From a virus, in IMG/VR virus record IMGVR_UViG_3300032249_000925, positions 1 through 64,000 of that record: a stretch of 64,000 nucleotides of DNA. One strand, written 5' to 3'. Numbering within the stretch: the stretch's first letter is position 1; each line of letters opens with the position of its first letter. The translations under genes were made by a program, and so were the position numbers. Under the pieces are notes generated by a model, which worked only from the letters and a program-made list of their open reading frames with translations, did not search any database and was not told where the DNA came from. Shown here piece after piece: positions 18,078 through 51,724 of this stretch.

Positions 18078-19475
18078 TCAAGCAAAGATTAGTCTAGAAA
18101 CACCTGGACCATAGTTACTTGTAACTTGCGCAAAACCAGTACGTAAGCTAGCAACCATAACACGGCGCTGTGTTTCAACTAGTTCTTGTGTATCAATACG
18201 TAGACCACGTTGATTACCAATTACGAAGTTGCCTGGAGCAATACAGAAAGCACCAATGTTATTAAATGTTGTGCCTGCTGTAGTTGTAGTACCATCTAGC
18301 TCGCCACTAACTAGTACTGGGCTGTTACCAATTTGGCCGATTTGACCTGTTAGTAATGTAGCTGAAGGACCAACTTGGTTCATAGTCTGGAATACTGTGT
18401 CTTCTAGTAGATTGTAGTAGATATTGGTATTAACAACATAAACTACATCTGCTGGATCAAGACCCCAAACTCCAAGTTGTCTACGTAGTGAACGTAAATT
18501 AGCAACTGTAACTGCTGTAGTGGCACCAGTAATTGAAGTAGTATTAGCGGTTGCACTACCACCTACACCACCAATTGCCCAAGTACCTAAACCAACAACT
18601 GGGTCGCCACTAGTAGCACCAGGTGCTGTGTTACCACCACCACGTAGGATTGCTTTATCAACTGCACGAGCAACGCGACGAATCATGCCATCACGAATTA
18701 CAGGCATAATAGCAAGAAGGCTATCTTCCTCTTCTTCGTAAGCTGTGTACTCGTTGGTAGCAACTTTGTACGCGCTTAATGTGACTTCTTTAATTGCATG
18801 TATTTGACTAGTACCAGCACTAGCACTAGCACCAAAACTTGTGTTATCAACCCAAGTAGCGCTACCTGCTTCTGGATTAACTGGAATCTTCATTACGTTA
18901 GTTTGCATAGCAATCTGACGGAATAGTGGTGCAACTACTAGTCTACGACGAACTTCAGCTTCCATTGATAGTGAAACTTCTTGTTCCCAAGTAGCATTAG
19001 GTAAGTGTGGGCCTTGGCCACTACCAGCATATTTTTGAACTAAGTCATAACCAAATTTGGTAGACTCAATTGGCTTGTTAGCCATTTTAGCTAGTAGAAC
19101 TGCTTTTTCTTTGTCTGCGTAGCTTAGTTCATTCTTGTCACTAGCAAAATGCATACGTGACTTTTGAACAGCTTCTAGTTCTTGAGCTTTTTCTTTTAGT
19201 GCAGCTTCTAGACCAGCAATTGCGCTTTTTTGTGTTTCTTGTTCAGCAGCAAAGCGCTTTTCAACTTCTGCTAGTAAACGCTCAGCACCTGTATCAACTG
19301 TTTGTACAGTTGCAACAGCTGCTTTAATTTTAGCGTCAAAATCAGCTGCAGCTTTTTCAGCAGCTGCTTTTTCAACAGCAGCTTTTTCTTGTGCGTCTGT
19401 AATGTGTTTTGCTGCTAGTTGAGCAGCTTTTTCAGCAGCCTCAGCTACTAACTGTTCGATCTGTTTTGAATCCAT
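18078..19475 (-). CDS. major capsid protein from internal in-frame start
   Basis: Within the protease-capsid frame, Met198 (ATG 19473-19475) is preceded by a strong ribosome site (AAAGGA, about 7 bases upstream). It falls exactly between the protease and the delta-like helix. Translation from here gives 465 residues: scaffold helix plus HK97 capsid domain. The arrangement resembles the in-frame nested C/Nu3 genes of lambda. It would solve the stoichiometry problem of a fused protease, since only a few protease copies are wanted per head. Nested initiation is an inference from the sequence. Confidence 0.75.
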   Translation of the reverse strand: MDSKQIEQLVAEAAEKAAQLAAKHITDAQEKAAVEKAAAEKAAADFDAKIKAAVATVQTVDTGAERLLAEVEKRFAAEQETQKSAIAGLEAALKEKAQELEAVQKSRMHFASDKNELSYADKEKAVLLAKMANKPIESTKFGYDLVQKYAGSGQGPHLPNATWEQEVSLSMEAEVRRRLVVAPLFRQIAMQTNVMKIPVNPEAGSATWVDNTSFGASASAGTSQIHAIKEVTLSAYKVATNEYTAYEEEEDSLLAIMPVIRDGMIRRVARAVDKAILRGGGNTAPGATSGDPVVGLGTWAIGGVGGSATANTTSITGATTAVTVANLRSLRRQLGVWGLDPADVVYVVNTNIYYNLLEDTVFQTMNQVGPSATLLTGQIGQIGNSPVLVSGELDGTTTTAGTTFNNIGAFCIAPGNFVIGNQRGLRIDTQELVETQRRVMVASLRTGFAQVTSNYGPGVSRLIFA

Positions 19476-20066
19476 GTTCAATTCCTTTATAGTTTCGCCA
19501 TTTGCTACTGTAGAGGAGTCTAGCTCTTTAGCTGATTCCGATTTAAGTGCAAATTGCAGTTTGAAAGACCTTAGTTCTTCACTTGTATCAAAAGATTTAG
19601 ATAAACTAAAAATGGTGTTTTGGTTTGCGGGTACAGAAACTACAGAAATTTCGTGTAGTTCTAGTTCTTTAACAACAAACAGCTCAGTAGCTGAATCATA
19701 TTGTGCGTCTATAATGCGAAAGCCGATACTAAAAGCAGTTAATACGCCGTCTTTTATTAAATTAAAGACGTCTTCTGCAGCTGCAGAAATTCTTGCCTTA
19801 ATCCATAAACCTTTATCATCTACTCTATGTTCTATCATTCTACCAACTGGTTGGCAATGCTCATGGTAAGCTAAAATTACTGGATTTTTTAAGTAATTTT
19901 CCATGCCTTTTTGCCAAACTTTAGCTGAAACAACGTCGCCTTGCCTATCCATGTCTATGGTACTTGCGTAACCTTCGACCATAATTGAGTCAATTGTTTC
20001 ACTAGCTGTTGGTAGATCCATGCTTTTAGTAAAAGCACTAGTTAAGTGTAATACTTTATCTACCAT
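18078..20066 (-). CDS. HK97-type prohead protease - major capsid protein fusion
   Basis: 662 residues in one frame. Residues about 25-155 are a prohead serine protease (peptidase family U35), with a catalytic-type His68/His70 in LAYHEH, Ser113 in AFSIGF and the EISVVSVPANQN strand. Residues about 200-310 are an Ala/Lys/Glu-rich helix resembling the HK97 delta/scaffold domain. Residues about 340-662 are the HK97-fold capsid protein. The protease should mature the shell by removing the scaffold. An internal start at 19475 (separate entry) probably supplies excess capsid subunits. The start ATG follows a GGAGA ribosome site. Confidence 0.9.
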   Translation of the reverse strand: MVDKVLHLTSAFTKSMDLPTASETIDSIMVEGYASTIDMDRQGDVVSAKVWQKGMENYLKNPVILAYHEHCQPVGRMIEHRVDDKGLWIKARISAAAEDVFNLIKDGVLTAFSIGFRIIDAQYDSATELFVVKELELHEISVVSVPANQNTIFSLSKSFDTSEELRSFKLQFALKSESAKELDSSTVANGETIKELNMDSKQIEQLVAEAAEKAAQLAAKHITDAQEKAAVEKAAAEKAAADFDAKIKAAVATVQTVDTGAERLLAEVEKRFAAEQETQKSAIAGLEAALKEKAQELEAVQKSRMHFASDKNELSYADKEKAVLLAKMANKPIESTKFGYDLVQKYAGSGQGPHLPNATWEQEVSLSMEAEVRRRLVVAPLFRQIAMQTNVMKIPVNPEAGSATWVDNTSFGASASAGTSQIHAIKEVTLSAYKVATNEYTAYEEEEDSLLAIMPVIRDGMIRRVARAVDKAILRGGGNTAPGATSGDPVVGLGTWAIGGVGGSATANTTSITGATTAVTVANLRSLRRQLGVWGLDPADVVYVVNTNIYYNLLEDTVFQTMNQVGPSATLLTGQIGQIGNSPVLVSGELDGTTTTAGTTFNNIGAFCIAPGNFVIGNQRGLRIDTQELVETQRRVMVASLRTGFAQVTSNYGPGVSRLIFA

Positions 20067-44278: not shown

Positions 44279-44370
44279 AGAGAGTTGGCTGAGCGGCCGA
44301 AGGCAGCGGTTTGCTAAACCGTCGTATGCAGCGATGTGTACCGTGGGTTCGAATCCCACACTCTCTGCCA
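44279..44370 (+). tRNA. tRNA-Ser(GCT)
   Basis: 92 nt, encoded CCA. Acceptor AGAGAGT pairs with ACTCTCT; anticodon loop TTGCTAA on a GCGGT/ACCGT stem gives anticodon GCU; long variable arm as in serine tRNAs; T arm GTGGG-TTCGAAT-CCCAC. Confidence 0.95.
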
Positions 44371-48801: not shown

Positions 48802-48830
48802 TTGAAATTTGCTAATGATTAGGGTATAAT
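48802..48830 (+). promoter_or_regulatory. rightward promoter for 48866 and tmRNA
   Basis: TTGAAA (48802-48807), 17-bp spacer, TATAAT (48825-48830). Confidence 0.82.
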
Positions 48831-48865: not shown

Positions 48866-49081
48866 ATGCAAAAACCAAACCGCTTTGATTTTGAGCAACA
48901 AATGATGGATTGCTGGGGTGTAGTAGATGACATTAAAACCATCTACTATCTCCAAGACTTGCGAGATAGTACAGAAGACGAAATGCAGAATTTACTGCTA
49001 GGTTTGTTTACAATGTATCAGGTCAAGTTTGAAATTTTGCAAAAAATGTTTGAGGACTTGGTTCACAGCAAACAGTTGTAA
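48866..49081 (+). CDS. conserved hypothetical protein, 71 residues
   Basis: Acidic helical protein, FDFEQQMMDCWGVVDDIKTIYY... then MQNLLLGLFTMYQVKFEILQKMFEDL. This family occurs in many large phages. Directly upstream of the tmRNA locus, so co-transcribed with it. Confidence 0.65.
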   Translation: MQKPNRFDFEQQMMDCWGVVDDIKTIYYLQDLRDSTEDEMQNLLLGLFTMYQVKFEILQKMFEDLVHSKQL

Positions 49082-49087
49082 ACGGGT

Positions 49088-49113
49088 AGCTACTTGGCAA
49101 TACTGTCAAGTAG
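49088..49113 (+). other. hairpin upstream of tmRNA
   Basis: GCTACTTG/CAAGTAGC stem with a 10-base loop; may terminate the upstream gene or belong to the pre-tmRNA. Confidence 0.6.
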
Positions 49114-49115
49114 CA

Positions 49116-49152
49116 CCATACCAAAGCCTAGTTTATCTGGGCTTTGGTATGG
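49116..49152 (+). other. 13-bp perfect hairpin at 5' border of tmRNA
   Basis: Arms CCATACCAAAGCC (49116-49128) and GGCTTTGGTATGG (49140-49152). No T tract follows, so it looks more like a processing signal or tmRNA helix than a terminator. Confidence 0.7.
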
Positions 49153-49212
49153 TTGTATGAAACAAGCCGAAAGGCGCGCTGGACGTGGGTTCGACTCCCA
49201 CCTGGTCCACCA

Positions 49213-49284
49213 AAAGCACATATAGTTGTCCTAGATGAAAGAAACCTCTGAGGGCTCTAGCGGGGATTATTGTGTGCTTCTGAT
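49213..49284 (+). other. intervening segment of permuted pre-tmRNA
   Basis: About 72 bases joining the 3' CCA piece to the 5' coding piece. AAGCACA (49214-49220) and TGTGCTT (49273-49279) pair. Expected to be trimmed away, leaving a two-chain tmRNA. Confidence 0.75.
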
Positions 49285-49371
49285 GGGCCAGTCATGGTTT
49301 CGACAGTGTGATAAGTATGCAAGTGGACAACTCGGTAGGCGATCTCCGCAAAAGAAGCAAACTATATAAAT

Positions 49372-49404
49372 GCCAACGATGAGGTATTTGCTCTAGCCGC
49401 TTAA
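49372..49404 (+). other. tmRNA tag-peptide reading frame
   Basis: GCC AAC GAT GAG GTA TTT GCT CTA GCC GCT TAA: ANDEVFALAA, ten residues ending in the ALAA degron recognised by ClpX/ClpA. Compare ANDENYALAA in E. coli. Confidence 0.93.
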
Positions 49405-49420
49405 GCTAGTGCCGAGGTAT

Positions 49421-49451
49421 GCCCCCGCCTTGTAACCAAGGGGGGCTTTTT
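49421..49451 (+). terminator. terminator of tmRNA transcript
   Basis: GCCCCC-(GC)-CTTG-TAAC-CAAG-GGGGGC stem followed by TTTTT. Confidence 0.85.
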
Positions 49452-49465
49452 ATCGGATAAATCTT

Positions 49466-50098
49466 ATGGCTAACAAAAAACTTGATAGTGATGATTTTAT
49501 GCTGGACACAGGTCTTAGCCGAGGATTTCGTAAATCTGGTTCTGCTATCTACGAGTTCTACCTAAGTGGAACTATTACAGGACCTGAAGACTATATTGAG
49601 TGGTTTAACACTATTCGTAGTGCAGGACCACAAGACGAAGTAAAAATTTATATTAACAGCAGCGGCGGCGATTTAAATTGTGCACTACAATTTATGCGTG
49701 TACTTAGTGAAACACAGGCCACTGTTATTTGTAGTGTTGAAGGCAGTTGCATGAGTGCTGCTACAATGATCTTTTTATGTGCTGATGTATTTGAGGTTAC
49801 TCCACACAGTTTATTTATGTTTCATAACTACAGCGGCGGCATTTTTGGCAAAGGCGGCGAGATCTATGATCAAGCTGTTTTTGAACGTGAGTGGTCTAAG
49901 CAGTTTTTACAGCATATTTACAAAAATTTCTTAACCAGCAAAGAAATTGATAGTTTACTAGAAAACAAAGACTTGTGGCTACACAGCGAAGAAGTAAGTA
50001 ATCGTGTAGAAAAATTGTGTGAAGCTAGAACTAAGGAACAAGAAGATGCTCGTAACGCCCTGTCAGGGGATTTGCAAGATGAATCCAACAACGAATAA
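49466..50098 (+). CDS. clpP: ClpP-like serine protease
   Basis: 210 residues with the ClpP fold. YINSSGGDLNCALQFMRVL gives the head region. EGSCMSAATMIFL carries the catalytic Ser97, LFMFHNYSGG the His120 and NKDLWLHSEE the Asp169, all at positions equivalent to the bacterial triad. It starts 15 bases after the tmRNA terminator. No ClpX or ClpA gene is in the window, so it would use the host unfoldase or replace/poison host ClpP. Not adjacent to the capsid genes, so a prohead protease role is unlikely. Confidence 0.88.
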   Translation: MANKKLDSDDFMLDTGLSRGFRKSGSAIYEFYLSGTITGPEDYIEWFNTIRSAGPQDEVKIYINSSGGDLNCALQFMRVLSETQATVICSVEGSCMSAATMIFLCADVFEVTPHSLFMFHNYSGGIFGKGGEIYDQAVFEREWSKQFLQHIYKNFLTSKEIDSLLENKDLWLHSEEVSNRVEKLCEARTKEQEDARNALSGDLQDESNNE

Positions 50099-51405: not shown

Positions 51406-51482
<77 letters not shown>

Positions 51483-51486
51483 GAAA

Positions 51487-51562
51487 CTGCCCATAGCTCA
51501 GTGGATAGAGCAACAGCCTTCTAAGCTGTTGGTCGAAGGTTCGATTCCTTCTGGGCAGGCCA
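51487..51562 (+). tRNA. tRNA-Arg(TCT)
   Basis: 76 nt. Acceptor CTGCCCA/TGGGCAG, anticodon loop CTTCTAA on ACAGC/GCTGT, T arm GAAGG-TTCGATT-CCTTC, CCA encoded. Reads AGA/AGG codons. Confidence 0.95.
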
Positions 51563-51568
51563 AACAAT

Positions 51569-51643
51569 TCCTTAGTAGCTCAGCGGTAGAGCAGCAGACT
51601 GTTAATCTGTTGGTCCGTGGTTCGATCCCACGCTGGGGAGCCA
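51569..51643 (+). tRNA. tRNA-Asn(GTT)
   Basis: 75 nt. Acceptor TCCTTAG/CTGGGGA (two G-U pairs), anticodon loop CTGTTAA on GCAGA/TCTGT, T arm CGTGG-TTCGATC-CCACG, CCA encoded. Matches the Asn-rich structural proteins. Confidence 0.95.
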
Positions 51644-51650
51644 AATTTAT

Positions 51651-51724
51651 GCCGGTGTAGTATAATGGCAGTGCGGCGGTCTCCAAAACCGCTAGTGGTG
51701 GTTCGATTCCATCCACCGGTGCCA
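51651..51724 (+). tRNA. tRNA-Trp(CCA)
   Basis: 74 nt. Acceptor GCCGGTG/CACCGGT, anticodon loop CTCCAAA on GCGGT/ACCGC, T arm GGTGG-TTCGATT-CCATC, CCA encoded. Confidence 0.94.

Follow-up and report, generated by a model that had tools for sequence, protein, structure and literature searches.

Circularly permuted, two-piece tmRNA genes have been described in phages before. Such a tmRNA was published for phage Melnitz, in which the tmRNA lineage differs from that of the host, and a survey of 18,146 phage genomes assigned the two-piece form to 53 of 133 unique tmRNA structures, with 50 of these 53 coming from marine or aquatic samples (PMC9004378). In addition, the 2025 tmRNA database contains 79 entries from phages, all forms counted (PMC11915505), and phage tmRNA and SmpB are mentioned in work on huge phages (PMC7162821). 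In the cited literature, the benefit that a phage-encoded tmRNA brings to the phage has been inferred rather than tested. Here we analyzed a window of 64,000 nucleotides (the whole stretch of DNA under study, positions 1 to 64,000 of IMG/VR virus record IMGVR_UViG_3300032249_000925, 99,362 bases), in which a reading of the sequence alone had proposed a phage-borne permuted tmRNA. The rarity implied by that reading does not hold: phage two-piece tmRNAs were already published (PMC9004378), and our IMG/VR pattern scan for permuted tmRNAs returned at least 119 viral stretches. The gene in this window adds to a kind already known from many aquatic phages.

The tmRNA gene itself was confirmed. ARAGORN reported a 'tmRNA*', i.e. 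a permuted tmRNA, at 49120-49495. In the covariance-model search that had been suggested as a check, RF01850 (beta_tmRNA) matched over its full model length with 139.8 bits (E 1.2e-42; curated cut-off 84 bits) and was the top scorer of its clan at the locus, and RF04321 (tmRNA_permuted) scored 135.2 bits (E 2.5e-26). The fold of the locus has a z-score of -6.5 versus shuffles. This signal far exceeds chance. The anatomy (Table 1) likewise agrees with the sequence-only reading: the CCA-bearing 3' acceptor piece lies upstream of the 5' coding piece, their separated ends form all seven pairs of a perfect acceptor stem (GGGCCAG/CTGGTCC) with a single G-U, which is G3-U70, and the T arm and the D-like segment are canonical and both present in the Rfam model alignment. 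The tag ANDEVFALAA was also read correctly, in a frame with a resume codon and a hydrophobic, Ala-rich end. G3-U70 is a known alanine identity element, and it occurs here together with A73-CCA.

Table 1. Features of the tmRNA locus and its surroundings (positions in the window)
Feature	Position	Strand	Basis or remarks
Candidate sigma-70-like promoter, TTGAAA-17-TATAAT	48802-48830	+	11/12 match; would serve the small ORF and the tmRNA
71-aa ORF	48866-49081	+	between promoter candidate and tmRNA
Two perfect hairpins, 49089-49114 and 49115-49152	49089-49152	+	z -8.7
Complete circularly permuted tmRNA gene	49151-49404, transcript to about 49451	+	ARAGORN, Rfam models
tmRNA acceptor piece	49151-49212	+	pairing strands, T arm, acceptor 3' strand, ACCA
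T arm, GTGGG-TTCGACT-CCCAC	49185-49201	+	inside acceptor piece
Acceptor 3' strand, CTGGTCC	49202-49208	+	sequence
Encoded ACCA, end of acceptor piece	49209-49212	+	sequence
Intervening segment, 72 nt	49213-49284	+	removal predicted from known permuted tmRNAs
tmRNA coding piece	49285-49451	+	acceptor 5' strand, D-like segment, tag ORF, 3' hairpin
Acceptor 5' strand, GGGCCAG	49285-49291	+	opens coding piece
D-like segment, GGTTTCGAC	from 49296	+	coding piece
Tag frame ANDEVFALAA and stop	49372-49404	+	GCC AAC GAT GAG GTA TTT GCT CTA GCC GCT TAA
3' hairpin followed by T run	49420-49451	+	intrinsic-terminator-like; ends the tmRNA unit
ClpP-like serine protease gene, 210 aa	49466-50098	+	predicted triad S97, H120, D169

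Comparison with other viruses indicates that the gene is kept by selection. Among 112 distinct viral permuted tmRNA loci, which were picked by the sequence pattern of the coding piece, a recognisable T arm was found in 91 and a full 7-pair acceptor stem in 84; in the remaining 21 the T arm was not found by a simple rule, in some cases since the contig or stretch ends. G3-U70 is kept in every one of the 84 with a full stem. The 67 clusters, which took in full-stem loci only and whose figures describe the consistent majority, comprise 15 distinct stem sequences, in which both sides of pairs 4, 5 and 6 change together, and shuffling of the stem partners gave just 20% full stems. Moreover, the close IMG/VR relatives, whose ClpP-like neighbour is 80-87% identical, mostly carry the tmRNA at the same position, and in their alignment the tag peptide is constant, with Ala and Leu codons varying only synonymously.

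The gene is not intact in every relative, because the normal T loop is gone from one (L010:4700-4940) and the encoded CCA is missing in a second (L003:1-260, on the same contig as L118). In the former, GGGGAGGGCAGTTCTCCCC takes the place of the T loop, with no TTCGA loop, and the acceptor stem is intact and compensated; this tmRNA is possibly decaying. The latter, known from a single contig, has the identical tag, a spacer of only about 7 nt and a different yet fully paired acceptor stem (GGGGTCG/CGACTCC), and its processing would be unusual.

The carrier appears to be a T5-like siphovirus from its gene content. Its genes for replication and regulation include a D5-like transcriptional regulator, a two-gene NAD-dependent DNA ligase, a DnaB-like helicase, a primase and a DNA polymerase, and its structural genes encode a tail fibre J-like protein, a tape measure protein and a head protein fused to a maturation protease. 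Four tRNA genes lie downstream of the tmRNA at 51406-51724 and one before it at 44279. SmpB was not found in the carrier record or in 30 other viral records searched, a search of the phage record for an AAA_2 unfoldase gave none, and no match was obtained in a search for the tmRNA on plasmids.

Taken together, we consider it highly likely that the locus holds a two-piece tmRNA gene of the betaproteobacterial type, complete and kept by selection in a T5-like phage, and that its product acts as an ordinary tmRNA with host SmpB. For the steps that we infer, a single precursor would be transcribed from the locus, the 72-nt spacer would be cut out by host tRNA-processing enzymes, and the two chains would be held together by the acceptor and lower helices. 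The acceptor with G3-U70 could then be charged by host alanyl-tRNA synthetase. Because SmpB was not found in the phage, the phage tmRNA would depend on the host; together with host SmpB and EF-Tu, the charged tmRNA would enter ribosomes stalled on truncated mRNA and add the ANDEVFALAA tag, whereupon the ribosome would be released and the product passed to host proteases. When mRNA is damaged in infection, keeping ribosomes free and removing truncated products may benefit the phage. It is reasonable to suppose, as had been suggested from the sequence alone, that the phage tmRNA may serve to control ribosome rescue during infection.

The next gene downstream, starting 61 nt past the tag stop codon, encodes a ClpP-like protein (PF00574, 41.6 bits versus a cut-off of 20.2; phrog_1827, E 2e-62). 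A Foldseek search with its AlphaFold model, for which the pTM is only 0.48, returned ClpP2 and ClpP as the best PDB matches (E 5e-7). A role of this protein as the head-maturation protease was ruled out, the capsid protease being fused to the major head protein far away at 18078-20066. tmRNA tags feed ClpXP, and the two genes might form a tag-and-degrade module, in which stalled products tagged by the phage tmRNA would be destroyed by the phage ClpP-like protein encoded next to it, with host ClpX or another unfoldase as partner. The adjacency of the two genes and the Ser-His-Asp triad, conserved in relatives, are in keeping with this reading, as are the linkage counts, in which related phages enter repeatedly and both genes tend toward tRNA-rich regions: of 40 large records selected solely for their tmRNA, 20 have a ClpP-like gene, which in 11 of these 20 is found no more than about 3 kb downstream and on the same strand (0.7 expected from uniform placement), and among 34 records picked for their ClpP, 20 contain a permuted tmRNA that scores above the curated cut-off. 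However, a terminator-like hairpin separates the tmRNA from the ClpP-like gene, no AAA_2 unfoldase of the phage's own was found, and T5-like phages of enterobacteria also have such a protease. A check of the sequence for a hydrophobic ClpX-docking pocket was negative: the equivalents of I90 and M92, which we take to be docking-pocket positions in E. coli ClpP, are polar in the sequence alignment (S and E, respectively). The two nearest downstream ORFs of 81 tmRNA clusters also speak against the module, with ClpP found 2 times and endolysin-type hydrolases 21 times; because ClpP is so rarely found in this neighbour scan, the linkage may largely be shared synteny of related phages. A joint module is therefore possible, with weak support, and we regard it as unlikely. 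Slightly less likely still is the broader idea that, in several phage lineages, permuted tmRNA and ClpP-like protein evolved as a pair for quality control by the phage itself, in which the T5-like protease would work with some partner that is not ClpX.

The region upstream bears on whether the tmRNA is a passive passenger or an integration-site relic, acquired with the tRNA cluster and unused. Of the two hairpins there, the first looks like a relic of the 3' half of a tRNA-Thr gene, which several relatives carry upstream of the acceptor piece; the second abuts the acceptor piece and differs from its counterparts in three relatives (L006, L008 and L011) by paired C-G to A-T changes. The promoter-like site is a candidate only, since such sites overall are no more frequent than in shuffles, and Pfam and PHROG searches with the 71-aa ORF gave no match. 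Although the tRNA-rich surroundings, the seemingly decayed tRNA-Thr and the altered copies in L010 and L003 could fit a passenger, the gene is complete, its stem covaries, its tag changes are synonymous only and most relatives retain it, which makes this explanation improbable. Least probable is a decoy or inhibitor that blocks rescue through competition with the host's tmRNA or SmpB: mycobacteriophage DS6A, with its tag-less tmRNA, offers a reported precedent (PMC11915505) and a phage without SmpB would draw on that of the host, but an intact tag frame with only synonymous changes would be needless for a decoy, and G3-U70 and CCA are both present.

Several other viral loci are worth noting. 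Two permuted tmRNAs with encoded CCA (L123 and L149) have a computed spacer of only 5 nt. In another locus (L012:1711-1878), a 55-aa ORF preceded by an AAGGAG Shine-Dalgarno-like sequence starts in the spacer and extends into the coding piece; a family search with it gave no match. Synechococcus phage BUCT-ZZ01 (L202:4902-5398, ON615601.1) contains an unannotated permuted tmRNA with the tag ANDETFSMALAA; a CDS that the record labels hypothetical protein overlaps this tmRNA. The most frequent downstream neighbour was the phrog_938 endolysin family (e.g. L084:5596-6147), to which 21 of the 145 ORFs in the neighbourhood of 81 clusters of viral permuted tmRNAs (loci L084 to L192) belong, probably through synteny of one phage group. 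Across the many natural variants of this tmRNA family, tags, acceptor stems and spacers (5 to over 100 nt) differ and the alanine identity pair is kept; they are suited to studying what phages need ribosome rescue for and how small a spacer two-piece processing can tolerate.

Returning to the ordinary two-piece tmRNA as the preferred reading, its closest counterpart is the betaproteobacterial form (RF01850; RF04321), with which it shares the gene order, the acceptor with T arm, the D-like segment, the resume context UAAAUGC, the Ala-rich tag end and the 3' hairpin. It differs from that form in being phage-borne, in the tag ANDEVFALAA and in the strong upstream hairpins outside the model. The ssrA of Methylophilales phage Melnitz is likewise a phage-encoded permuted tmRNA; however, it is of the alphaproteobacterial type and was reported with a glutamine riboswitch, whereas ours is of the beta type with no riboswitch at the Rfam cut-off in the window, and Melnitz is a myophage, unlike the T5-like carrier here. 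Permuted tmRNAs of Stenotrophomonas and Synechococcus phages also score with the beta model. Since they do so, and since the Melnitz tmRNA does not match the lineage of its host, gene type is a poor guide to the host. The present gene may have been captured from a bacterium with a permuted tmRNA, as the sequence-only reading had proposed. Among the former, the tmRNA of Stenotrophomonas Menderavirus (e.g. phage Yut2, PV130723) is phage-encoded, permuted and above the beta-model cut-off, as is ours, but the Yut2 tag, VAANDDSYTVRIAA, is unlike ANDEVFALAA, and ClpP is not annotated in the 10-kb Yut2 stretch. Finally, the CDS-less tmRNA of phage DS6A is also phage-borne and has no tag (PMC11915505), whereas in the present gene the tag is intact.
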